From positions 71,192,046-71,256,045 of the forward strand of contig NC_069125.1 of assembly GCF_026914265.1 (NCBI RefSeq): DNA of 64,000 nt. Direction: 5' to 3'. The DNA is from Mya arenaria (taxonomy: Eukaryota > Mollusca > Bivalvia > Myida > Myidae). The notes below the pieces were generated by a model. The model saw only the letters and a program-made list of their open reading frames with translations. It made no database searches and was not told where the DNA came from. Shown piece after piece: positions 23,590 through 50,485 of this stretch. The position numbers and the translations under genes were made by a program. The first letter of the stretch is position 1. Each line of letters starts with the position of its first letter.

Positions 23590-26500
23590 TCATACAAAGT
23601 CCGCGGAGTCCTTGGCAAGTTGGTTCTTCATCCCGTAGCTGAGCTCGGCGCCGCCGGTGAGAGGGATATTGATGCCGGTACAGAAAGTGGCGTCGGCGGC
23701 TAGAAACAGGCACGCCCGCCCACACTCCTCGATCGTCCCAAACCGACCCAGCAGCTGTCGAGTAAAATAGACACGCATTTCAGTCAAGCTAAAATCATCA
23801 AGCTAAATTTATTTTAAAGATTTCTATTTTTCCTAAAATACAAGTTTATGAAGTTTAGTTTGAATTAAAACAGAGTGAAATGATTTCAAATCACGCGATT
23901 GCACTAGAATGTGTTGTTTATTTCGCAGAGCTGGCATGAACTAGAGCAGCATAACGTTCGTCTTTTTATGATTATTATCATAGCTAAAATGATTGTTCAT
24001 GTGAGAAGTACAAGCAACTTTAATTCTTTGCAAGCACGCCGACATCGGGGACAGTCAGGTTAGGACAATTACTCTTCTTTCTGTCCAAAAACAGACGTTT
24101 TCTTTCCGTCCAAAAACAGACGTCTTCTTTTCGTCCAAAAACAGACGTACTAAACACCCCTTGGCTACCACAACGGATTATACCGGCTGTATCACAGATC
24201 ACATGTGTAAGTACAGAAATTCGAGCAATTTGAAAAGCTTACCTGGGCGTTTTCTCCGTTTCTGCGGCACTTCTCCGGATCTGGTGTCTTGTTAGCGCCG
24301 TCCTCCCACATCGGCGTCCACACGTTCCCGGGAGAAAACCTGCATACAGTAACAGCACTGAGTTACAGTTGTGTCATCAAGACAAATGTACGATATTCTG
24401 ATCATATTTTGTCAGTTCATTTCAATTAAATACAATGCAGCAAGTGCGTGTCGACAGAAATGATAATGAAACAACATACGTATTGACGCGTACACCGTGT
24501 ATAGATTCATCTATTGCCAGCGCTTTGGTGAGAGACGTGATACCACCCTAAAAACAGCATGTGCCGTTTTAATCAGGACAACACCGTATAAGCTGCTGAT
24601 GAAACCAAGTCGACAAGTGACGGAGTGAGGTTAGAGATTGCAAATGAGAAGACACATATGTAGAACGTTTGGAAGAATGGTTACCTTTGAGGCGACGTAG
24701 GTGCAGGATCCTGGCTGTCCGATGTCCGCCACGAGACTCGAGTCCTGAATAATACATCCCTTGGTCTGTCGCAGGTACGGCAAGGAGTACTGAACGAAAC
24801 GAAAAGAAAAACAGAATAAAGTTTCTAATTAATATAACAAATTGAATAACTTGTGTTTTGATAAAATGATCAACTATTGTATGAAAGTGTATTCATGTAC
24901 ATGGCTTTACATTTGCATTACCTTAGCAACGAGGAAGTAGCTGACGAGGTTAACGTTGAGCAGGCTCTTGAAGTCATCCGCCGAGATGTCGTCAATTCGC
25001 ATTACTGGAGGATCTGCAGGTACGGAAGTCGGGATTAATACACTGACTTCAAATGGTTTCATAATAAGTTATTATTTAATAACTAAAGACCACTTGAAAA
25101 TTTCAACTCCCTCATAAATATAGAACGTTGAAATACATACGCTGCCCGGCGTTATTTATAACACAGTCGATTCTTCCAAACTTCTTAACTGCAGTGTTTA
25201 TCAAATTCTGAAAATTCAGAAATACGACATTCAAGGTTGATTTAAGTCGTTGCGATGCTACATAGTGTGAGATTTTCACTTATATATAGTCATTACTGAA
25301 ATTCCTTAGAAACAGGTGCGGTGGTAAGAACTCGTAACATAAGCAGGGATCACAGAAAAGAAGGCCTTTTGTTTAACACATTTCATTGAACAAAAATAAT
25401 AAATAAGTAAAACACACACACACACACACACACATTGTTTGCCATGATATTGCAACGGATTAAAACGAACGCGGAGCTCAAAGACGTATCGGTTGATGCA
25501 AAAAAATTTTTTTTAATTTTAATGCATTAGAGCTATTATGTTTTACTTATTTAACTTGAATGATAAAAAAGAAATTGTCTACAGATAAAAAAGATTAGCG
25601 ATATGTTGGCGTGTTTTGACTGGTGAATTTATGGCCACTTGGCTTTTAACTGAAAAACCCAATTGCGTTTGGTTAATATTTTTGAATATGTACATAAATC
25701 TTGTGCTTTTTTGCTCTGATCATTAAAGTCAAATGAGTAAAACATAATTATGCATAATAAAACAAAAATGCATCGACCTTTATTGTGCGCCTGTGAAATA
25801 TTTATCTCCAAAAGGAACGCCGTTTATGCCTGCAAGCGTCGACAAGTGGCCATTGTTACCTTGATGTCGTCCTCACTGGTCATGTCACAGCGCACGAACA
25901 CTGCACTTCCTGGACCCTCAGCGTTCATCTGGGTTTCCAGCTCCCGCCCCTCCGCCTCTATTGTAAATAATAACACTTTATCGAACAGATGACAATGCAC
26001 TTCTACTACTACCGTCAAGACCACCACAACCACCACCACAACTTTCATTATTCTTTTATATGTTTTTATTCTTATTATATCTTATACAACAATCTGAAGA
26101 TCGTGCCAAAGATGGTGTATTTATGAGAACAAATTTCTTTGAACTTGAAGAAATGAAGCGCAAACGGGAAATCTAGCCTTAATACGTTGACTACGGGATA
26201 TCATGCCTAAATAAATCGTTTGAATAATGTGAATGGGTAATACATGACTGAATAAAGTGTATGGGGAATACATGTTTAAACAAGGTGTATGGGGAATACA
26301 TGTTTAAACCAGGTGCATGGGTAGTACATGCCTGAATAAGGTGTATGGGGAGTGCATGCTTGAATTATGTGTATGGGGAATACATGTTTAAACAAGGTGT
26401 ATGGGGAATACATGCCTGAATAAGGTGTATGGGGAGTGCATGCCTGAATAATGTGTATCATCCGAGGGAATACATGTTTAAACAAAGTGTATAGGGATTA

Positions 26501-29500
26501 CATGTTTAAACAAGGTGTATGGATAATAGATGTTTAAACAAGGTGTATGGGTAGTACATGCCTGAATAAGGTGTATGGGCAATACATGTTTAAACACGAT
26601 GTATGGGGAATACATGTTTAAACAAGGTGTATGGTGAATACATGTTTAAACAAGGAATATGGGTAGTACATGCCTGAATAAGGTGTATGGGGAGTACATG
26701 ACTGAATCAATTGTATGGGTAGTTCTTGACTGAATCAGGTGTATGGGTAGTACATGACTGAATAAGGTGTATGGGGAGTACATGACTGAACAAAGTGTAT
26801 GGGGATTACATGACTGAACAAGGTGTATGGGGATTACATGACTGAACAAGGTGTATGGGGAGTACATGACTGAATCAGGTGTATGGGGAGTACATGACTG
26901 AACAAGGTGTATGGGGAGTACATGACTGAACAAGGTGTATGGGGAGTACATGACTGAACAAGGTGTATGGGGAGTACATGACTGAACAAGGTGTATGGGG
27001 AGTACATGACTGAACAAGGTATATGGGGATTACATGACTGAACAAGGTGTATGGGGAGTACATGACTGAACAAGGTGTATGGGGAGTACATGACTGAACA
27101 AGGTGTATGGGGATTACATGACTGAACAAGGTGTATGGGGATTACATGACTGAATCCGGTGTATGGGGATTACATGACTGAACAAGGTGTATGGGGAGTA
27201 CATGACTGAACAAGGTATATGGGGAGTACATGACTGAACAAGGTTTATGGGGAGTACATGACTGAACAAGGTGTATGGGTAGTACATGACTGAACAAGGT
27301 GTATAGGGATTACATGACTGAATCCGGTGTATGGGGATTACATGACTGAACAAGGTATATGGGGAGTACATGACTGAACAAGGTGTATGGGTAGTACATG
27401 ACTGAACAAGGTTTATGGGTAGTACATGACTGAACAAGGTGTATGGGGAGTACATGACTGAACAAGGTGTATGGGGAGTACATGACTGAACAAGGTGTAT
27501 GGGGAGTACATGACTGAACAAGGTGTATGGGGAGTACATGACTGAACAAGGTTTATGGGGAGTACATGACTGAATCCGGTGTATGGGGAGTACATGACTG
27601 AATAACGTGTATAGGTAGTACATGCCTGAATAACGTGTATGGGTAGTACATGACTGAATGAGCCTGAGTTTGCGCAATACATGTTTAAACAAGGTGTATG
27701 GGGAGTACATGACTGATGAAGGTGTATGGGTAGTACATGACTGAACAAGGTGTATGGGGATTACATGACTGAACAAGGTGTATGGGGAGTACATGACTGA
27801 ACAAGGTGTATGGGGATTACATGACTGAACAAGGTGTATGGGGAGTACATGACTGAACAAGGTGTATGGGGAGTACATGACTGAACAAGGTGTATGGGGA
27901 GTACATGACTGAACAAGGTGTATGGGGAGTACATGACTGAACAAGGTGTATGGGGATTACATGACTGAACAAGGTTTATGGGTAGTACATGACTGAACAA
28001 GGTGTATGGGGATTACATGACTGAACAAGGTGTATGGGGATTACATGACTGAACAAGGTGTATGGGGAGTACATGACTGAACAAGGTGTATGGGGAGTAC
28101 ATGACTGAATAACGTGTATAGGTAGTACATGCCTGAATAACGTGTATGGATAGTACATGCCTGAATGTTTGCGCAATACATGTTTAAACAAGGTGTATGG
28201 GGAGTACATGACTGATGAAGGTGTATGGAGAATACATGTTTAAATAAGGTGTATGGGTAGAATATGACTGAATGTGGCGAATGAGGAAAAACAAGCATGA
28301 ATAAGGTGTTTATACGGGAGAATATGTCCAAGTAAGGTTAATACGTTAGAATAAGTCTTAAAATGATACCTACGTGAAAACATGCTAAATAAGGTACTAC
28401 GAGATAAAATGCCTCATGAGGTGCGTCACGGTGGAGAACCCACGTGACTTATTTGGTAAAGTGCACGGCAACAAATGTCAACAAGTCTCGATTCAGGTAA
28501 GGTTTTTAAAGATAACTTTCTTAATATTTGGAGAATTTTTGTGAAATAAAGACCATAAACCCCGCATTTAAGAGCTCTATCCACGGTAAAAAAGAACTTT
28601 CTCTAATATCTTAAAGTTTTCCTGAAAATCTTGACCAACTGATTTCTCAGAGTTGAAATCTAAGGCAATGTACACGGCTTTTGACAAATCTATCGGTTTA
28701 CTTCATGTTATCCGTAAATAATTCATACAAAAATCTTATTTTAAGCAAATTTTATTTATTTTAAAGTTTTCAGCGTGTATTGTTGAACTTCTTATAGTTA
28801 TTTCAAAGGTGAAAATGAGCTAAAACCAAATTGATAAAGTACACGGACATTTTAGGTTTGATAAAGTACATGGTCGTTTGCAACCTTCAGTGTATATACT
28901 AATTATTTCACTGAGTGGTGCTAAAACGAGTTATTATAAATATATTTATTATTTCTATTCTTAAAATTCATTATTGAACATTGTTCCATGTTTGAAAAGA
29001 CGCATTGTAATGGAGTGATAATGGAAGAATGAACGCGTGTCGCCTAAATGATGGGCTCATTTTCATGAATCATGGAAACATGTGTCATCACACTAAAATT
29101 CAGTCCCGTATTTAAACAATATACTCGCAATTGACATATAAAGGGCTTGAAGTTTTTGTAAAGGGAGTTCCACTTCTTTTTCGTATCGTATATGTAAAAC
29201 GTGTTTGTATTCATTATACATGGTAAACAGTAACACATAACTGCTTAATAACTCTTCATTTTGTCAATTTTGAGGAAGAAAAGTGTTCTTGTACTTTTAA
29301 TGTCTTCTATTGCTAGCTGATTTGAACGACTTATAATTTTGTGACATTTGTTTCATTTCAGAATATGAAGACTCCGACTTTATGCAAAGAATGCGGAATG
29401 GCATTTCAAAATAAAACAAGAGCTGTCACAGTATGTGACGAATGCCCCCGAATGTGACATTGACCTACGAACAAGGTCAGTACATGAAAAGTTGATCTTG

Positions 29501-32500
29501 CCTTTACGTGTCAAATACATATGGCAAGTTATTTTAAATTGCCTCTGAACATAAAAAAATACCACCCATACTTGACAACCTACACTGTTATGTCCTTATA
29601 TTCAGAATTCCCTTGTGAATAAACACTTAAGTGTATCTTTCACCTTAGAGGTAGGGACATGGGTCTTGCACACGACACGTTGTCTTCGTATGTGGAACAC
29701 ATGTAGCAAGTGATTTTAAAATCTGTCCATACAAGGGAAAGTAACAGCCCTGACACGACAACCTATACTCTATGTCCTTATATGCAACACTCCATTGTGA
29801 ATAAACACTAAGTGTGACCTTGACCTTTGAGGTAGGGACACGGGTCTTGCAGGCGACACGTCGTCTTGGTATGTGGAACAAAAGTGTCAAGTTTTTTTTA
29901 AACCTGTCCATACAAGGGAAAGTTACAACCCGGACACGACAACCTATACTCTATGTCCTTATATGCAGCACTCCATTGTCAGACAATGCGAATGTCCGTC
30001 GGACAGTCGGACATGTCCGGTATATTTCAATTTTGACCGACGAAACTTTTGTGTTGGTCGGTCACACTGTCCGGTGAAAAATTAAAGTCAGCACCGTTTA
30101 ATTTTCGGAAAATTTACTTTCAGTTTCTAAATAAATGTTCAGAGTTATTTTTATATCATGATTATTCAGCGTGTTAATCCGTGTTTCACTATTTGTAAAC
30201 CCCGTTTCAACATGTTTCCGTAAAAGCCGATAAAACGCGTAAGGTTCCGATTTCAGCTGGTACTCTAATACTTTTATTTTACGGAAATGTTCGGAAATTA
30301 CAAAATTCCGTTATGTAGTGGTTCCCGGCAATCGTGTTAATTTAAATATGATGATTAATAAACCGAGCTGACTTTCTTTCCGCTCTGTTTAACATTGCCA
30401 ATAACAAGAACTCTACTTTCGTTTTTGCATAAATGTGCCTGAGTTTGACTTGTAGTACAATTCGTAACATTTTATAACCCTATTGTATCTTTAATTTAAA
30501 GATGAATTAAGTGTAAGATCTAGCTGTTTCATGGGTAGACGAACCAGATATGAGTTTTTATTGGGGAGGCAAGGGAAGAAAAAAATTATGACATTTATAA
30601 GATTTTGTTTACATTATGTTTGGCCTTTTTTTGTAATTTATTATAGTACTGTAGGACAAATCTAACCAAAAGGATCTAAACCTGTTATAATGGGGAATTA
30701 CAAAACTTATTTAAAAAAGAGGCTTATTAAATCAAGGTTTAGGCTGATGTTACTGAATACTGTTTGTAACATTGCGACAGGTAAAAATTTGGTGCGACAG
30801 GTAAACTTTCAGTGTTTACCTGTCGCAATGTCCTGTGAAGAAGGAAAAGTTTTCGCGTTGTCTGCATTGTGAATAAACACTATGTGTGACCTTGACCTTT
30901 GAGGCAGGGACACGGGTCTTGCACACGACACGTCGTCTTGGTATGTGGAACACATGTGGCAAGTTATTTTAAAATCTGTCCATACACGAGAAAGTCACAG
31001 CCCGGACACGACAACCTATACTCTATGTCCTTATATGCAGCACTCCATTGTAAATAAACACTAAGTGTGACCTTGACCTTTGAGGTAGGGACACGGGTCT
31101 TGCAGGCGACACGTCGTCTTGGTATGTGGAACACATGTGGCAAGTTATTTTAAAATCTGTCCATACACGAGAAAGTTACAGCCCGGACACGACAACCTAT
31201 ACTCTATGTCCTTATATGCAGCACTCCATTGTGAATTAACACTAAGTGTGACCTTGACCTTTGAGGTAGGGACACGGGTCTTGCACGCGACACGTCGTCT
31301 TGGTATGTGGAACACATGTGGCAAGTTATTTTAAAATCTGTCCATACAAGGGAAAGTTACAGCCCGGACACGACAACCTGTACTCTATGTCCTTATCATA
31401 TATAATGCAGCACTCCATTGTGAATAAACACTAAGTGTGACCTTGACCTTTGAGGTAGGGACACGGGTCTTGCAGGCGACACGTCGTCTTGGTATGTGGT
31501 ACACATGTGGCAAGTTATTTTAAAATCTGTCCATACAAGAGAAAGTTACAGCCCGGACACGACAACCTATACTCTATGTCCTTATATGCAGCACTCCATT
31601 GTGAATAAACACTAAGTGTGACCTTGACCTTTGAGGTAGGGACACGAGTCTTGCACGCCACACGTCGTCTTGGTATGTGGAACACATGTGGCAAGTTATT
31701 TTAAAATCTGTCCATACAAGGGAAAGTTACAGAGCCGGACGGACGGTGCGATTTTAATATGCCCACCTTCGGGAGCATAAAAACAACATCTAGTAGACCA
31801 CGATAGAAGGCATTCTGGTCGATTGCCATCGTTTTTGCGGGAATGTGTTTACACAGACACAGGTTAGTTTTTAGCTTTTTTTCGCCGAGAAATAAGAATA
31901 TACTTATAGTTATACTTTTATTATGACTCCCCTCGTGTAGAGGTTAAGATTTGCCGTCGTCTGACTGTGTTTTCAACGTTCTTTAGGGGGTTGCGTTTTT
32001 CACATAATAATGTGGTCCACCATGTTTCAGTGGACAGGGTCGTTCAGATTTATGGTGCTGATTACACGATCAAACACTCATTGCGTGGCAGTTATATGGT
32101 GTTTTTTTATAAATTATATTCAAGTACTGACATTGCCAGCATTTCTCGCTAACTTGTGACAGCACATGTTTTTTTATAGGTGCAGCAATCACGAGACAAA
32201 GTTGCACGTTTGCAAATAGTGTGGCAAAACTACCCTTGCAAGACTTGAAGATACACGAAAGACGCGAATCGGCCAATTGAAGCTAACCTGTGTGTGTGGG
32301 TTCAAACTGGGTGACACGACCAATCTCAGTGACCAGATTTCTACTAGATACAGGGGTATGACACGTCACAAATGTCTACAGTGTCGCTCAGCATTCAAGT
32401 TCAAATCTGGACTCAGCAGGCACGTTAAGGCGAAACACACCTAATCAGGACACATTGAAAGATCACAATGGTCTAGTTAGAAGTGCATTCCAGTATGTTT

Positions 32501-34967
32501 CTGAGTTGAAATAACGTTTTGATGAGTTCAACATTTTATTAAGATAAATAGCAAAACGTACTGTTACCAAATGGTGCTCTTTCAAAATGTTCGTTTGTCT
32601 TACAGTACTGAAAACATTGCAGTGTAAAATTAGTATGAAAACGGATTGAGCATAAAACATTTTCACAAGGTTTAGAGATGCATTGTTGTCATTTTCCCAT
32701 TGGTGTCCTATAAACTCTTAACTGCATGTATCTTATATAATTCAGCAAGCTTTGAAACACAATTATTTTGTAATCACAATAAAGCCTTTAGTCTAGAACA
32801 TTCTAATGTCCCATGTTCAGCTCTAATCTATATGTTCAAGTCTTAGTCCTAGCCTGTAAGTTGGTAATATAGTGTGCTCTCATTCCTCCTTGCTGTTTCC
32901 CATCTTACTCGGAGCCTCCATCTTTACAATGAGTTCCTGTCTGTATTGTTCGAACGACCGCAGTTTTACTGATGTAGATCAGATAATATTTGTTCAGACT
33001 GAACCAAATAAAAGATTCAGTGTTACCTGAAAGGTATGAACAATATGCTTTAAATGTGGAAATATATATAAACTAATTGTGATGTGCCTATTTTATTGTT
33101 TTATATCACATCAAAATAGGAATATTCATGAAATTTATAATCACCACAAACAGACCGCAAACTACAGAGATGTTTTATTCGCCGTCAGTCCAGATTATAA
33201 TTTATAAGTAAAACTATCTGATTTTTGAAGAAATGTATGTATGATTCTGTATTGATCTGCATATTTAAAAGTAATCGAACTTATAATGGCAGACTTTCTC
33301 TTCAATTATTCCATAGACTATCTTTCAACTCCTCATTAAATATGATTGCTAAACATTTAGTTATTTAGGTGTGCGTTATAATGCAAAATTTATGGATACA
33401 ACTTAAATAAAAACTAAACACTATACATTCTGACTTCACGAATAGAAAATGCTTATATAACGATTAGTTTGTAAACCGCACTCTACTTTCAAACATAAAC
33501 TAAAATGACCGTGTACTTTATCATCCTAAAATGCCCGTGTACTTTATCAATTTGGTGTTAGTTCATTTTTACCTTTGAAATAACTTGAAGTTAAACAATA
33601 CACGCTGAAAACTATAAAATACATAAAACTTTCTTAAAATAAGATTTGTGTATGAATTATTTACGGATAACATGAAGTAAACCGGAAGATTTGTCAAAAG
33701 CCGTGTACTTTGCCTTAGATTTCAACTCTGAGAAATCAGTTGGTCAAGATTTTCAGGAAAACTTTAAGGATATTAGAGAAAGTTTTTTATTACCGTGGAT
33801 AGAGCTCTTAAATGCGGGGTTTATGGTCTATATTTCACAAAAATTCTCCAAATATTAAGAAAGTTATCTTTAAAAACCTTACCTGAATCAAGACTTGTTG
33901 ACATTTGTTGCCGTGCACTTTACCAAATAAGTCACGTGGGTTCTCCACCGTGTGCGTATGTGGAACATCTACATACATGCTTGAAGATATATGCCACAAT
34001 AATGTATGCAATTGATAAAAGTTGCAATTTTGAGTTGCAATTAGAATTGCATATAAGCTTGTTTCCGGTTTCAAACTTTTTGAAATATTTCGCACCTGAC
34101 CCATTAACGATAAAGACGCTTTCAAAATGGACCCATACAAAATGACGTGTTTTAGTGTTCAAATTATATATAATGACACAATTTTAGTAAAAACAACATC
34201 ACAAGAACTGTATATTTAAGCGCCTAACGAGCTGCGAAAACTTGAGCCTTGTTATCTTAATATAACCCATGGTTATATTTGCCGGTCTATTTCAAAAAGA
34301 CTTGGAAAGTCACAGCATGGACACGACCCCCGTGCATATATATTCAGCATTCCATAATGAACCACCTTTAACTAGGATCTTGACCTAAGGGGTAGAGACA
34401 GGGATCTTGCGCGTGATACGTCGTCTTTATGCCTTGCATCTCATCTGTGTAAGTGAAAACGATTCCACTGTGCAAGCAAAGTTACAGACACGAACATAAA
34501 TCGGACGGAAGGACGCAGTCCCGCGTTCGTGGGCATAAAAACATTATGTACCCTTAACTTTTTTGCAATGAAGTCGGAAACAAACATTTATCATTTCTTT
34601 CGCCTTAGCGAGGCAAATACTTTATGATGGAGTTGAGTGGTAAAATGTGATTCCATTGTAAAGCAGATGAAACTTAAACTATGATATAAATTCATCTAAT
34701 ACACATGATGTAGCCACTTACCTCCTCTTGAACAGAATACGACATTTGATCCAGCCCGAACTGAAATAGTAAGGCACTTTAAAGAAAAAAAAGGAAATTA
34801 ATAGAGTTATACTGATCTTGTTTACATAAAGAAAGTTGCATATTTACAATGGAAACGTGAATATCCATGCATCACTTACCAAACACCTCGACGCAACCAC
34901 GCCCAATTCCCTTACTGCCTCCTGTCACTATAGTAACCTTATCCTTGTAACGAAGTCCTTCCGCCAT
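23590..34967 (-). CDS. HSD17B14: 17-beta-hydroxysteroid dehydrogenase 14-like short-chain dehydrogenase
   Basis: Complete nine-exon SDR gene, 272 aa (human protein 270 aa). The family oxidises steroids and other hydroxyl substrates with NAD+ in the cytosol. Exons in transcript order: 34880-34967, 34722-34760, 25860-25957, 25141-25207, 24922-25013, 24685-24789, 24480-24547, 24243-24339, 23590-23754; phases join exactly. The start MAEGLRYKDKVTIVTGGSKGIG carries the cofactor-binding TGGSKGIG at residues 15-22. NNAG is at 93-96, the catalytic Ser at about 145-146, and YVASK puts Tyr at 159 and Lys at 163. SPGNVWTPMW follows, and CTGINIPLTGGAELSYG near the end is diagnostic of HSD17B14. Intron 2 is 8.8 kb and holds the 28-bp minisatellite and the 5.5-kb transposon; the other introns are short. 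Substrate is inferred from family only. Confidence 0.93.
24074..24148. repeat. Three tandem 26-bp units in the last HSD17B14 intron
   Basis: Three units with CCAAAAACAGACGT separated by TTTCTTTCCGT-like spacers. Short, non-coding, inside the last intron of the dehydrogenase gene. Confidence 0.7.
25412..25434. repeat. (CA)n microsatellite
   Basis: Short CA run in intron 3 of the dehydrogenase gene. Confidence 0.85.
26215..28350. repeat. 28-bp minisatellite array (about 76 units)
   Basis: Units of 28 bp, consensus GAACAAGGTGTATGGGGAGT then ACATGACT, inside intron 2 of the HSD17B14-like gene. The 5' part (26.2-26.7 kb) uses a CATGTTTAAACAAGG variant and the rest is more uniform. A composite block at about 27595-27730 recurs at about 28105-28230. 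Minus-strand frames are open for up to 276 codons because three units make 84 bp without stops; they are translations of the array (MFSHVLPIHLVQSCTPHTP and the like) and I do not call them genes. Confidence 0.95.
28422..28426. repeat. Left target-site duplication TGCGT
   Basis: Direct repeat immediately outside the left CACGGTG terminus, matched at 33953-33957. Confidence 0.7.
29415..31785. mobile_element. Tandem 180-bp repeat element (ACAAGAGCTGT ... GCATAAAAA)
   Basis: Begins ACAAGAGCTGTCACAGTATG and ends GGGAGCATAAAAACAAC. Between them are about seven units of roughly 180 bp with TGTGACCTTGACCTTTGAGG, GGGACACGGGTCTTGCA, CGACACGTCGTCTTGGTATG and CAGCCCGGACACGACAACCT. It interrupts zinc-finger exon 1 of the 5.5-kb transposon and is itself split by the 885-bp insertion. 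The same start motif appears at 59909 (septin intron), and single related units lie at 34300-34545 and 59909-60215. No coding capacity is visible. Confidence 0.8.
29980..30864. mobile_element. 885-bp DNA transposon with CAGACAA ends and 6-bp target duplication
   Basis: Inserted into one unit of the 180-bp array. CATTGT flanks it at 29974-29979 and 30865-30870, and the interrupted unit resumes exactly after it. Ends are inverted: CAGACAATGCGAA at the left and TTCGCGTTGTCTG at the right (12 of 13 match). Near the right end is a hairpin made of GCGACAGGTAAA and TTTACCTGTCGC; near the left end are GTCCGTCGGACAGTCGGACA palindromic blocks. No transposase. Superfamily not assigned. Confidence 0.75.
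33953..33957. repeat. Right target-site duplication TGCGT
   Basis: Direct repeat immediately outside the right terminus, matched at 28422-28426. Confidence 0.7.
34296..34545. mobile_element. Single unit related to the 180-bp repeat element
   Basis: Contains GGACACGACCCCCGTGC, CATTCCATAATGAACC, TAGAGACAGGGATCTTGCGC and ends CGTGGGCATAAAAAC, the same order of blocks as one unit of the 29.4-31.8 kb array. Lies in intron 2 of the dehydrogenase gene, outside the 5.5-kb transposon. Confidence 0.65.
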
Positions 34968-39336: not shown

Positions 39337-42300
39337 CTAACTTTGATTTTTCCTTGAAAAGTAATTTATTATTTTATGACAAAAGATACTTAGTTTACGA
39401 ATGTCCTCCTTGTTTTCGTTGTTAAACAGTTCTCTTAATTTCTGAGTATTAGGTCTGTTATAATAATATCTATTAAGATATTTGTGCCTCTCATTTGAAA
39501 AAGTATTACATTTGAACAAATAGTGAAACTCATCCCCAACATCATCACAGTTAACACATTTTCTTTCATTTATGACAGTGTTATTCCATCTACCCGTTTC
39601 TATTGGTAGTCTATGATTTCTGTTTATAAAGGACAATAATGATTTAGTTAAATTTGATGATAAATCATTTATATAATTACTTTGTGCAAAATTAACTTTT
39701 ACAATTTTGTAGAAGTTCGATGCTGAGGTTCTGTCAATATCAGTGTGCCATTGTTGAATAAAACAGTCATTTAGTTTTTGGTGCATAGACTTTATAAGCC
39801 ATTTACTATTACTAAAACTTTGGCTATACCATATACCCGAGTAACCGTTATTGCAAAGTATATTTTTAACATTTTCGAACCATGGTGATTTAACACGTCT
39901 TTGTGAAACAAGTTCATTAAGTATAACATACAATTTTGAGTTTAGTTTTATTACTTGACTGTTTTCTTTGTTGTCAATCATTCGAGCCCAGTAAGATACA
40001 ATTCTCGTTTTTATGTCTACTGATAGCGGCCGGATGCCGATTTCTCCGTATACCATATAGTTTGGTGTAGATTTTTTTAAGTTGAAAATATATTTGTAAA
40101 ATTTCAGTTGAACCCTTTCTAAGACATCAATATTTCCAAAACCCCAAATTTCACATCCATATAATAAAATGGGTTTTACACATTTCTCAAAAAGATCAAT
40201 TTGAATAGCAAATGATAGTGTGAGTTTTTTTTTTTTTCTAAGTAGCGAAAACATGGCCTTTGTAGCTTGGTCAGCTAAATACTTCTTTGTTTTATTATTT
40301 GATCCTGTCCTCGATAAATACAAGCCCAGATACTTATATTCTTCAACTTGTTCTAAAACAATGTCTCCTATTTTGAAATTCAGATTGTTCAATCGTCGTC
40401 CTTTGCCTATTATCATGATTTTGGTTTTATCTGTGTTTATTTTTAATTTCCAAATATCACAATATGTTTTAAAAGCATCTAATGCATGTTGCAATTCTCC
40501 AGCATTATCACTGAATATAACCGTGTCATCAGCATATAAAAGTATGAACAATTTTACGTATACTCGTAGCCCATCTATTGTGCTTTCTTGTGTTATTCCA
40601 GTTATACCTTGGTCACTTAGATAAGACTCAATGTCGTTTAAAAACAATGAAAACAAGAAAGGTGACAAATTTTCTCCTTGTCGTACACCAACGAAACAAC
40701 TAAATGTATCTGAAGTGCCTTCGGACGTCATAACCTTTGATTTAATATTGTCATACATGTTGAAAATGATTTTGAAACATTTACCATTGATATTTTCATT
40801 AATTAGTTTTCTCCAAAGTCCAACTCGCCAGACTGAATCAAATGCTTGTTTAAAATCTACAAAACAGCAGTATAGTTTCTTTTTATTAGATTGTAATATA
40901 TCAAGCAGACATTTAAGAACATATATATTATCTACAGTTGAAAAATTCTTTCTAAACCCAGCCTGCGTTTCATTAATAAAATTTTTGCTTTCAGCATACT
41001 TATTTAGCCTGGTGTTTAAGACGCAAGTAAATAATTTCCCAAAACAACTGAGAAGAGAAATGGGTCTGTAATTTTCAGGCAGTTTTGAATCACCCTTGTT
41101 TTTGTAGATTGGTTTTATAATACCCTCTGTCCAACTTTCTGTAATTGTACCATGGTCTAAAATTAAGTTGAATAACTTAACATAAATTGGTAGCATTATA
41201 TGTACAGATGATTTAATATGTTCATTGACAATGTTGTCAATACCAGGTGCTTTATTACATTTAAGCGCCTTCGCTGCAATTAATATTTCTTTTGCACTGA
41301 ATGGTCTGTTAATTTCTTCATTTGTAGGATCTATGTTTTCATTTTCACGAAGTATATCTTCGTTAAGCTGCGTATCCTCGTGTATATTTGAATTATCATT
41401 TAATTTTTTAAAGAAATTGAAAAAATCGCCAAGTGTTGCACTTACTTCATTTTTTTTATATTCAGAATTTAGTATCTGCCAGTATTTGCGTGTGCTATTT
41501 AGTTTCAAGTTCCTTAACCTGTTAATTTTGTTATTATTATAACTGTTTTGTGAAGTGTGCATTGTGCGTTTGTATTGCTTACTAATGTTTCTTAGACATT
41601 CTTTTAAATGACTTGTTTTATGCTTGTTATATGTCCTTCGTGTTTTGTGATAAATATTTCGCAAGTTTTGACATTCCCTGTTAAACCAGGGAGAATCGTT
41701 TTGTGTCGAGACATTATGTTCTCTTTTGTGCACCATACCAAATGTTGTAACAGCGTTTTCGCTAAATAATATTGCGATATCATTTACAACATCATCTATA
41801 TCGTTTTGTGAAATTTGATTATTTCCTGATAGCAAATCTAATTTACTTTCAATATCTGATACTTTTAAAATATCAATATTATCTACAAAATTAGCTGATT
41901 TACTACTGTCCCAAAGTTTTGGGCCCTTTGTTGATTTATTTCTATTTCCCGTTATAGGGTAGTGTTTACACTTTACGACAGCTGTAAGTGAGCAATGGGC
42001 ATCAGATAGTAAGTGACAAAAATCTTTCACTTCAAAATTAATTACATTTTCAAACACGTTTGACGTAGATACCATATAGTCTACCGTGCTTGCACTTTTA
42101 CAAGTTAATTGAGGATTAGTCCCGTCAGAGCCGATGCGACCATTCCATAGGAATAAATTATTATTTTTGCAAAAATCAATAAGTTGGTTTCCATAATGGT
42201 TGATTGTATTATCAATATTATGTCGATGCAAAGAAATATTACATTTTTCAAAATTGTAGAGTACATTCGAATCTTCATTTTGTACATCTTTTTTTGTAAA

Positions 42301-42850
42301 TCAAATAGGTCTGATAAAACATTGTCACAGAAAGTGAAATCGTGCAAATTGCCGCATCGTGAATTTATATCTCCCAGTAGGAGTATATGGTCATTTTCTG
42401 AGCAAAATCTAAACAGCTCATTTTGAATTTCAAAATACGGGTCAACATGAGAGTATTTTGACCCGATGGGTGGTATATATAAAATACCACATTTAAGATC
42501 AATATTGCTATTACAACCATATATATCTTTCGAGATAGTGAAAAATTTAATAAGGTCGCTCTGTGGTGATGTATCAATCTGTACAAATGGTAATACATTA
42601 TCTTTCACAATAAGAGCAATACCACCAGAGCGATAACGAGTTAATTTCTGTCTGTTGAACATGAATACAGAGTAACCAGGGATACTTATAAAATCTGTAT
42701 CATCAGTTTTGGTTTCTTGCAAGCAAATAATATCATATTGGTTTATAACAGTTATAAAGTCTGGAGTTTTTATTTTGCTTAATACACCACCAACATTTAA
42801 CGACAAGAATTTTAATCTACAATGATCAGTATCGGCGTTTTCTGAATTGT
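39337..42850 (-). CDS. LINE ORF2: AP endonuclease and reverse transcriptase, one frameshift
   Basis: ORF2 of a non-LTR retrotransposon on the minus strand, about 1,160 codons. The endonuclease begins KFLSLNVGGVLSK and has CLQETK, GGIALIVKD and LLGDINSR, with STVDYM and SDAHC after the frame change. The reverse transcriptase has APGIDNI, YRPISLL, DFKQAFDSVWR, GVRQGENLSPFLFSLF and the catalytic YADDTVIF. The C-terminus has a Cys/His motif, CVNCDDVGDEFHYLFKC. The frame changes once, near 42285-42297 in an A-run within the endonuclease; no other break is seen across 2.9 kb, so this is a young copy. The motifs fit the APE-type jockey/CR1-like superclade, clade not resolved. Confidence 0.92.
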
Positions 42851-42899
42851 CACAAGGATTACCATTATCACTTGAGTAATAGCCGTCTTCCCCGGACCG

Positions 42900-47403: not shown

Positions 47404-48860
47404 GGTTATTTCGTAACCTTACCATTTCGTAACCGCTCATTCTTGGTTATTTCGTAACCATTGTGTTAGTCATTTCATAACCATTGACAAATCGATTGGT
47501 CATTTGGTAACCATCCGTTAATGAAGTGTTAAATGGCACACTTATCACCTCGTTAAGTTTATTGCTCAATACATAATACAAATTGCACAGCAACCAAGAT
47601 TACAACAGGGAAATATCCCACAAATTCCTGCAAACAATTACCATTGACTCAATTGAGCGTCAGTGCTTTGATTACCAGTGACGGTTCTTTTATTCAAGCT
47701 GCAAAAAACACTTGCAGGAAAGTCATATTAGTTTGATAAAATATATTTTATTGATGCAAAGTAGTAATAAAATACTCATTAGAAAATTAGCAATGTATTG
47801 TGATAAGGCGTTCAAACTTCGTGATTCGTTGATATAATGTGATGTGTCATGGATGTTTTCTATCTTATTGTTGATAGGGTAAAAACTCATATTGGGTTGG
47901 TGTATTTTCCCTATGTTTTGTTATTTCGGTACATGTTTGCATCATTTTCGTGGTACTTACAATGTAATCAAATATACTTTCATTACCCATTATACGCAGT
48001 CATATGCGGCTATATACATAACCAATACATGATAACTGTTTGATCAATCTTAAATAATGTCCGACTGTATGTAATATTCAATTAAAAATTATATCATATA
48101 ATATTAATTCATTCTCACAAGTATATCCCAGAAACAATCAAATCAAATGAATTTAGCGTATAATATGCTGTGTTAAAATTGTTGCATGCCATATATATGT
48201 TTTTTTGTTTGTATATATGTTATTATGACGATAAGCTTGTTATGCTTAAGTCTAATAACTATTTTGTTCTGTTCTGTTCTGAATTAAATGTTAATTAGTC
48301 GTGCTTATTAAATTGATTGCAATTAATGTTGTCTTACTTAATTCCATTGTTTGTTCACACCTTGATAGTTTCAAGTTCAAAGTTCATTGGCAGATTGGCA
48401 TAAAATAGCCTTTGGCCATTAACAAAATAAATATGGCAAAAACATAAATCAACTATAAAGAGTAACGGAATAATAATAAATATACATCATGTAATTAAAT
48501 ATGAAAATATAAATTGTTAAACACTTAGAAGGAAAAAGCAGAAATTAACAAAAGTTAACATAAGGAGGATTACTATATACAAGGAAAGTATTTCTTAAAT
48601 TCATGGCTTCTTTAATGTAGATTGCTATCTGAGTTTGTCTTTAGTAATAATCATAGAATGCACTTCAACATTTATAGTTTTTACAAACTTATTTTGGAAA
48701 ATAAAATGTTATTATTTATATTAAAGTATATATTATGTATCATTGAAATATTTAACTGATGGTTACGAAATGACCAATAGATTTGTCAACGGTTACGAAA
48801 TGACTAACACAATGGTTACGAAATAACCAAGAATGGGCAGTTACAAAATAGTAAGGTTAG
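47404..48860. mobile_element. 1.46-kb element with ends made of GGTTATTTCGTAACC units
   Basis: The left end (47404 to about 47522) consists of five units of the near-palindrome GGTTATTTCGTAACC spaced by short unique sequence (ATTCTT, ATTGTGTTAG, ATTGACAAATCGATT). The right end (about 48758-48860) carries the same units and spacers in inverted order. The interior holds AT-rich sequence and a LINE 3' tail at about 48190-48290. No transposase or target duplication was seen. Confidence 0.75.
48190..48290 (+). mobile_element. LINE 3'-end fragment inside the 1.46-kb element
   Basis: ATTATGACGATAAGCTTGTT, ATGCTTAAGTCTAATAACTA and TTCTGTTCTGTTCTG match the order of motifs in the tail at 46445-46555. 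Confidence 0.5.
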
Positions 48861-49236
48861 ATAGATAGATTCTTTTTCATGAATATTATTTTTGGTCAAT
48901 TGTTATTACATTTCACAAAAATCTTTATTTTATTTTTTGTTAAGTTGAAACCATGTTCTACAATGTATATTAAAGGGCATGGCCCAAGGAGTGTGGCTTA
49001 TCAATATTGCCTTACATATTGTGAATGTACATACATTTTTTCTCTATAGTATATTTCAATACATGTTTCGGGCCAAATCGGGGGGGGGGGGGGGGGGAAT
49101 ATACTGCTGAATATTGTGGAAACTTTTTCAACATATATTACATATTTTATTTGTCTTTTATATAATATTTATTTGTTTTCAGCCGTCATCACCTTTGACG
49201 TTCTATAGTCGCCTTGATTTCCAGCAAAAATTTGAA

Positions 49237-50485
49237 ATGTCCATACCACTACCACACAAAGTTTATAAAGTAGGGGATACAGAGAATCCAAATGCCAGGA
49301 TTGTGAGAGTAGTGCATATTTCAGACACACATATGCAACATGATGATTACAAACAGAATATTCCAGAGGGTGACATTCTTATACATTCAGGAGATTTTTC
49401 TCAGTACAGTTTGAAAATATTTTTAAAACGGAAGTCCAGGGAGAGGCAAAATCTTGTTAGTGAGATGAACAGTTTCTTTGGAAGTCTTCCATTTAAACAC
49501 AAAGTACTGGTACCAGGCAATCATGAGATGTGCTTTAGTGAGTCTGACAAGGCGTTCTTGGAAAGCCATCTAACTGAAGTCATATATCTTCAAGACAAAT
49601 CAGTTCAGTTGGAAGGATTAAATATATTTGGTTCTCCTTGGACTGCCAATAGATGGTATTCATATGCAGACTCATTCACAAAGAAGATGAGTAGATTACA
49701 CAGAATTTGGAGTGAAATACCTGAAACTACAGATATTCTTGTCACACACATGCCTCCTTTTTGTATTCTGGATTTGGCAACCAAAAAATTTGCCGGACTA
49801 AAGAATTTGTTTGGTGCAACTGAGGGCTTGTGTGATACCTGTTCATTAGTCCATGCTCAATCTGAACATTGGGGATGTCGAGATCTGAAGAAAGCTGTTT
49901 TAAAAAACATCAGGTATTTCTCTTTTCATTTTTTTTTACATTTAAAACAAATTGGAATAGCAATGATAATAGTTACTCTAATTGTTAATTACAGCATAGT
50001 AAGTTATAAATTAATGTTTTTTAATTTTAACATGGCATGTGTAACTCCATACTTTTCACTATATTCTTTATCTGGTCTTAGTCATATAAAGAAATTATTT
50101 TAGTCTCATATTTTTGTTACTCACATATACATTTTGTAAGAATTGGTTATACGCTGTTGGAAACAAACTTGAAGAAACGGGAAAAAATCAACTTGATGCC
50201 TCCTTTTTAGTCCTGTTTTATTCCTAGTTCTAAGATTATCGGGTACAACTAAGATCCCTTGATGAAAGTGGCCCCTGCTTACTTGTGTGTATGTAAAATA
50301 CATGTTAGTCCAACCAAAAGTGGTAATGAGACATCTGTTCCACTCCTTTCAGGCCTGTTGTGCACATGTTTGGCCATGTACATGAGGGAAATGGTGTCGA
50401 GACAGTGGATGGTGTGACCTTTTCAAATGCTGCTATGAAGCTTAAATCCAGGCTAAACGTGTTTGATGTTCATGTTCAAACATGA
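49237..50485 (+). CDS. Metallophosphoesterase, UPF0046/MPPED-like
   Basis: Two coding exons, 49237-49913 and 50353-50485, encode 269 aa ending TGA. Calcineurin-like phosphoesterase of the group that includes MPPED1/2, which hydrolyse cyclic nucleotides weakly using two metals. All metal motifs are present: SDTH (Asp30, His32), SGD (Asp53), PGNHE (Asn95, His96), VTHMPP, and GHVHEGNG with GHVH at residues 233-236 after the splice. The donor AG|GTATTT is in phase 2 and the acceptor TTTCAG|GCC restores Arg226. An acceptor at 49181-49182 precedes the first in-frame ATG, so a non-coding 5' exon probably lies upstream. Repeats surround the gene closely, and a LINE 3' end begins about 115 bp after the stop. 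Members are usually 270-300 aa. Confidence 0.88.

Follow-up and report, generated by a model that had tools for sequence, protein, structure and literature searches.

A young, apparently non-autonomous family of CAC-ended transposons with long inverted arms and a predicted, decayed zinc-finger gene

Among named classes of transposon, the nearest ones to combine CAC ends with a 5-bp stagger are those from which V(D)J recombination descends. Hztransib is described as having 'long TIRs' with a 5-bp duplication, and the same source offers a single example of a Transib-type duplication, GCTCG (PMC1852546), another source giving the single example CCAGG (PMC4411706). The targets of RAG are called GC-rich (PMC11844651) and the end consensus of the protostome RAGL elements is given as CACTWMCAAACKTYKBB (PMC7204232). 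From molluscs, one Transib element is listed in a bivalve-centred survey of genomes (PMC10294476), and N-RAG-TP of Aplysia is said to be a transposon made up of RAG1 N-terminal-like sequence without the core (PMC8355894). Members of the CMCT clade are described as having CA..TG ends in most cases and duplications of 2-5 bp, with 3 bp in fungal EnSpm, and the reference list of the same paper includes work on hAT groups whose duplications are 5 or 6 bp long (PMC12730594). Pack-TIRs have been described in animals, where a set of 370 drawn from 100 genomes contained multicopy cases as exceptions (PMC8277862); related accounts concern plant Pack-TYPE elements (PMC8903248) and Turmoil-1 (PMC2572040).

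The window (the whole stretch of 64,000 nucleotides analysed, C4:71192046-71256045) contains a transposon copy of 5526 bp at positions 28427-33952, with ends CACGGTGG...CCACCGTG and an exact TGCGT flanking both sides. Its features are as follows.

28422..28426, no strand: left target-site duplication TGCGT, from the sequence as read
28427..28879, plus strand: left terminal inverted arm, 453 bp, starting CACGGTGG, from inverted-repeat search and gapped alignment
28458..28468, plus strand: subterminal motif AAAGTGCACGG, from alignment of the arms
28667..28677, plus strand: subterminal motif AATGTACACGG, one base off, from alignment of the arms
28836..28846, plus strand: subterminal motif AAAGTACACGG, from alignment of the arms
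28863..28873, plus strand: subterminal motif AAAGTACATGG, one base off, from alignment of the arms
29362..29419, plus strand: first part of zinc-finger exon 1, acceptor AG at 29360-29361 and ATG at 29365, limits predicted
29420..31778 (about), no strand: later nested insertion with 181-bp satellite monomers, not present in any of the 17 further copies of the alignment
31779..31862, plus strand: rest of zinc-finger exon 1, to the donor GT at 31863, limits predicted
32180..32444, plus strand: zinc-finger exon 2, acceptor AG at 32178-32179 and stop TAA at 32442-32444, limits predicted
33503..33952, minus strand: right terminal inverted arm, 450 bp, ending CCACCGTG, from inverted-repeat search and gapped alignment
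33953..33957, no strand: right target-site duplication TGCGT, from the sequence as read

The first-pass annotation had described inverted ends of about 450 bp, some 95% alike, with an exact TGCGT outside both, and this description holds. In a gapped alignment 429 of 454 columns are identical between the arms (94.5%) with 5 gap columns, the first 60 bases are the same in both, and the inverse complementarity ends precisely at the terminal C and G. A 6-bp duplication, GTGCGT, could be read by shifting one boundary; it was rejected as it breaks the symmetry of the ends. The 11-bp subterminal motif AAAGTRCACGG occurs, exactly or one base off, four times in each arm with a common orientation within each, the four of the right arm lying on the minus strand. 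Read from each tip, CACGG is found five times in the left arm and six times in the right.

Elsewhere in the window, 73 copies of a 28-bp unit with strong GC skew form an array at 26221-28272 that ends about 150 bp before the transposon. A non-LTR retrotransposon lies on the minus strand at 39337-42899, where a 987-aa frame contains a reverse transcriptase (PF00078, E 2.5e-39) and the frame before it an endonuclease domain (PF03372, E 1.6e-8). An open frame on the plus strand at 49111-50103, with a domain of the calcineurin-like phosphoesterases (PF00149, E 7.5e-12), is perhaps an exon of a host gene, and a pair of inverted repeats at 47414-48859 (108 nt, 92%, 1230 nt apart) perhaps marks a further transposon.

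A search of the host genome (1.216 Gb in 18 contigs) with the roughly 450-bp left end, the check suggested by the first-pass annotation, revealed a repeated family. There were 731 first-look candidates; among the best 40 of these, scored over the full or nearly full arm, identity was 100% for the window's own arm and 96-98% for the rest, with two further partial matches. Twenty copies were fetched and both ends were found in 17, which together with the window copy gave an 18-copy consensus of 3193 bp. Divergence from this consensus is 1.8-3.2% in 16 of the 18 copies and 7.3-7.6% in L032 and L045, the latter values being inflated by replaced segments, a satellite block in L045 and about 0.9 kb of other sequence in L032. 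The family is young, with most copies around 2% diverged, and has undergone a recent burst. Nearly all ends that were read are CACGGTGG/CCACCGTG, the exceptions being L048, with CACAGTGG at one end, and L042, which has lost the terminal G; ends were located by likeness to that of the window copy, such that strongly differing ends would escape. Five loci gave a MITE form, 456-465 bp long, which was counted as one insertion since all five have the same flanks. Copies that share their flanks with one another at different places are L010/L011, L014/L016 and L052-L055 with L057, presumably through segmental duplication of the insertions. In the 806 bp of L007:1501-2306 a full arm is succeeded by 118 bp from the opposite end, which is probably an internal-deletion derivative.

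Target-site duplications were read at 27 insertions with both ends: the window copy, 17 of the 20 fetched copies, 8 of 13 further copies and the MITE. In the remaining five further copies one end was missing from the fetched stretch or by the words searched. The duplication is exactly 5 bp in 21 cases, exactly 6 bp in two (L044 and L050) and 6 bp with one mismatch in one (L046), while three insertions (L032, L042 and L075/L076) have none; for repetitive targets such as TTTTT, ATATA and TATAT the length is ambiguous. The 5-bp duplication noted beside the CAC ends of the single copy is therefore the rule, and none of the 27 was read as 2, 3 or 8 bp. As the arm recurs across the genome and exact 5-bp direct repeats flank most insertions, the structure in the window is not due to chance. 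The 21 five-base duplications are AT-rich, with 20 G+C among 105 bases (19%; p 3e-4 if the background is taken to be 35.5%) and an A or T at the centre in 20 of the 21.

The window copy is longer than the family form of about 3.19 kb because a satellite-bearing insert of about 2.36 kb landed in it, inside the A-run of the zinc-finger exon 1, a run that blurs the edges of the insertion. The peptide CDEC...DLRTR (about 29430-29483) was considered as exon sequence and rejected, as comparison with the other copies places it in the satellite insertion. Distinct satellite-bearing inserts are present in two family copies, the window copy and L045, and the breakpoints of L026, whose insert itself is unread, are those of L045. 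In their tails these inserts resemble the Helitron-like satellite carriers known from bivalves.

The interior of the element holds, as predicted from the consensus, a decayed two-exon C2H2 zinc-finger gene. Exon 1, preceded by an acceptor, would contain an ATG and an A-run that varies in length and would end at a donor, and exon 2 would contain further fingers followed by a stop. While the exon 2 frame is broken in the window copy, it is open in 11 of the 18 copies, and the whole two-exon frame is open in two, L041 and L035, the latter without the GT donor. The 136-aa join of the consensus exons showed weak zinc-finger similarity in Pfam, under the curated cut-offs. The consensus has a frameshift in one of the exon 2 fingers, the parts of which are kept in an older copy and in the diverged relatives.

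When the genome was searched with the protein, the best 150 of 1540 candidates were scored, at 74-94% identity, and some of the matches fell in copies already fetched (among them C5:37457458 in L042 and C4:71224238 in the window). Two loci, L081 on C14 (C14:59794065) and L082 on C12 (C12:16660154), encode complete proteins of 141 aa with an identical splice position, and C12:17890338 gave a similar match; a third locus, L083 on C5, is a closer copy in which exon 1 is broken and the usual stop is lacking. Between L081 and L082 dS is 0.70 and dN 0.091, a dN/dS of 0.13, with an intron identity of 0.80 without gaps; as dS exceeds the intron divergence this ratio may be too low, and against the intron p-distance it would be about 0.4. 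For the last 63 codons, dS is 0.33 and the ratio 0.34 between the family consensus and L082, against a dS of 0.84 and a ratio of 0.16 between the consensus and L081, the ratio between L081 and L082 being 0.10. By these substitution estimates the intact genes are apparently under purifying selection, and L082 is nearer to the family than L081.

At both loci the sequence runs collinear with the interior of the element, at an identity of 71-75%. L081 follows the consensus from inside the left arm, at 241, to 1700 at 73%, the inner-arm part being 81% identical to the other arm and holding two GATAAAGTACACGG repeats, seen in the translated frame; AAAGTACACGG motifs also lie upstream of its intact gene. 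In L082, consensus 172-231 is followed by 851-1777, an insertion of about 1.2 kb and 1778-1814. Since inner-arm sequence and gene occur together at both loci, the two were linked before L081 and L082 parted, be it as a gene plus its flank or as an old element. The tip CACGGTGG is absent from both in the DNA fetched, which covers their right sides only in part: L081 has a lone CACGGTG at 337 and a lone CACCGTG at 2905, with no further likeness to the tips, and CACGG is absent from the 3.4 kb of L082. No transposase-like frame was seen beside the gene in either.

The 18-copy consensus has no stop-to-stop frame longer than 99 codons, hence no transposase is seen and the family is apparently non-autonomous. 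Searches of the genome with end, arm and tip patterns and with RAG1/Transib probes found no autonomous relative. The end pattern with an altered ninth base had eight matches (one for the backwards control): five at loci of the MITE form, one in a copy of the family and two at old partnerless ends. Of the partnerless copies, L034 and L036 enter family sequence and end early, and L049 consists of a truncated arm with other repeats next to it. When the old end L058 served as query the best 40 of 646 candidates were scored, and the next best matches, at 80-84%, included several at known family copies. The inner-arm pattern with another continuation had two matches in the genome, both in old copies of the same element; the tip pattern followed by other sequence had none there, and a 30-bp end pattern had none in viral contigs.

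We consider it most probable, at about 55%, that the members of this family are non-autonomous, Pack-type cut-and-paste DNA transposons mobilised in trans by a transposase that uses CAC ends and a 5-bp stagger. Because no autonomous partner was found, the type of this enzyme is deduced from the ends alone. It would be encoded elsewhere, now or formerly, and would belong to the CAC...GTG superfamily group (CMCT clade); such a DDE/D transposase would act in trans, recognising the subterminal AAAGTRCACGG motifs, cutting at the CAC ends and joining with a stagger of 5 bp. The zinc-finger gene may have been captured from a family of host genes on which purifying selection still acts, and the 5' flank of that gene may be the source of the inner arms, in which case the arms would have grown by inverted duplication. 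A captured gene would have a parental host gene without transposon ends; L081 and L082 lack arm tips where read but retain inner-arm sequence.

As to the class of the transposase, an origin in an EnSpm/Chapaev-like (CMCT) group, or in an entirely unnamed superfamily that combines CAC ends with AT-rich duplications of 5 bp, is possible and the best placed of the alternatives. A CMC transposase would carry the motif C(2)C...H(3-4)H. The ends usual in the CMCT clade and its range of duplication lengths (PMC12730594) agree with the family. The genome also contains a fragment at C4:6479282-6479419, which would bear on this class only if it were connected with the family ends. It lies in a frame with HVPMIHEKYGTLATFSGQFVEK on the minus strand (L086, C4:6479200-6479560), is a weak match to the Transib probe and has a motif that resembles CMC-type transposases.

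In a more doubtful alternative the zinc-finger gene was not captured at all; it would have belonged from the start to an old transposon lineage as an accessory gene, such as one for a protein binding the subterminal repeats, with L081 and L082 being old, partly destroyed copies in which the host has kept the gene. This concerns the origin of the gene and the other three alternatives the class of transposase, and the odds overlap. The collinearity of L081 from inside the left arm through the gene argues for it, as does the retention at L082 of arm sequence adjoining the gene, and for L081 the AAAGTACACGG motifs together with the lone CACGGTG and CACCGTG words suit an old copy of the element no less than the flank of a host gene. 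Against this, neither locus shows an arm tip in the DNA read or a transposase-like frame. The binding site predicted by a simple finger-recognition code is also not enriched in the element, with 5 sites at 6/8 matches against 7.5 expected from the window.

The proposal of the first-pass annotation, a non-autonomous relative of Transib or the RAG-like elements, stands in part. What was found is an apparently non-autonomous TIR transposon that has CAC ends and, as a rule, duplications of 5 bp, and its ends and duplication length fit Transib; the end of HzTransib may likewise read CACGGTGG, and as Hztransib combines long inverted ends with 5-bp duplications, the length of the arms is no argument against it. 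Kinship with Transib or RAG is nonetheless unlikely. The AT-rich duplications depart from the GC-rich target preference of Transib, and two clean 6-bp cases occur. The protostome RAGL end consensus agrees with CACGGTGGAGAACC for CAC only and, compared by eye, mismatches CACGGTGGAGAACCCAC. The RAG1 profile PF12940 had no match over the host genome, where its controls were silent too, so that this is no proof of absence. A 69-aa Transib/RAG C-terminal probe, which matched HzTransib in the PDB at E 8e-8, had two weak matches in the genome, the better at E 0.38. A literature search for Transib together with CACGGTG found no paper, which says nothing wider about what is in print.

A derivative of the hAT groups with 5- or 6-bp duplications (hAT5/hAT6) is very improbable, for while the duplication length would fit and subterminal repeats are usual in hAT elements, CAC is unlike the usual hAT third base and arms of 450 bp are unusual for hAT.

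Going beyond the Pack-type reading, one may speculate that the family represents an unnamed lineage of animal DNA transposons marked by CAC ends, by 5-bp duplications rich in A+T and by long arms studded with the motif. The small C2H2 protein would then be the lineage's own and would long have been under purifying selection, either as an end-binding accessory or adopted by the host, with the transposase acting in trans; we regard this as rather unlikely. If the hidden transposase were of the Transib/RAG kind that class would be widened, and if it were of another kind, CAC ends with a 5-bp duplication would be too little for calling elements Transib-like. The linked and apparently selected zinc-finger gene would in turn make gene capture or host adoption testable in an animal family of many copies.

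Compared with the known systems, the family resembles Transib (Hztransib) in its CAC ends, 5-bp duplication and long inverted ends, but no transposase is seen in it, its duplications are AT-rich and include some of 6 bp, and it carries a zinc-finger gene. With protostome RAGL and ProtoRAG it shares the initial CAC and the 5-bp duplication; its ends differ after the CAC, and the two are alike over 450 bp. No RAG1L or RAG2L was seen among the consensus frames, and no RAG1L with the RAG1 profile, whose controls were silent. N-RAG-TP is likewise a molluscan transposon and has zinc-finger character, whereas the 136-aa consensus join of the family had no match to any RAG1 family of Pfam up to an E of 0.01. 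The EnSpm/CACTA and Chapaev elements have similar CAC...GTG ends and repeated subterminal motifs, which occur in CACTA, but their named members duplicate mostly 2-4 bp, against mostly 5 bp in the family, for which no transposase was found. KolobokP, described as abundant in bivalves, also has terminal repeats of about 450 bp and was rejected as these are described as direct, while the arms of the family are inverted. Pack-TIR and Pack-TYPE elements are, like the family, non-autonomous TIR elements with exons, an intron and gene flank; the family differs from most Pack-TIRs in being multicopy, and in that its inner arms may themselves be captured DNA.
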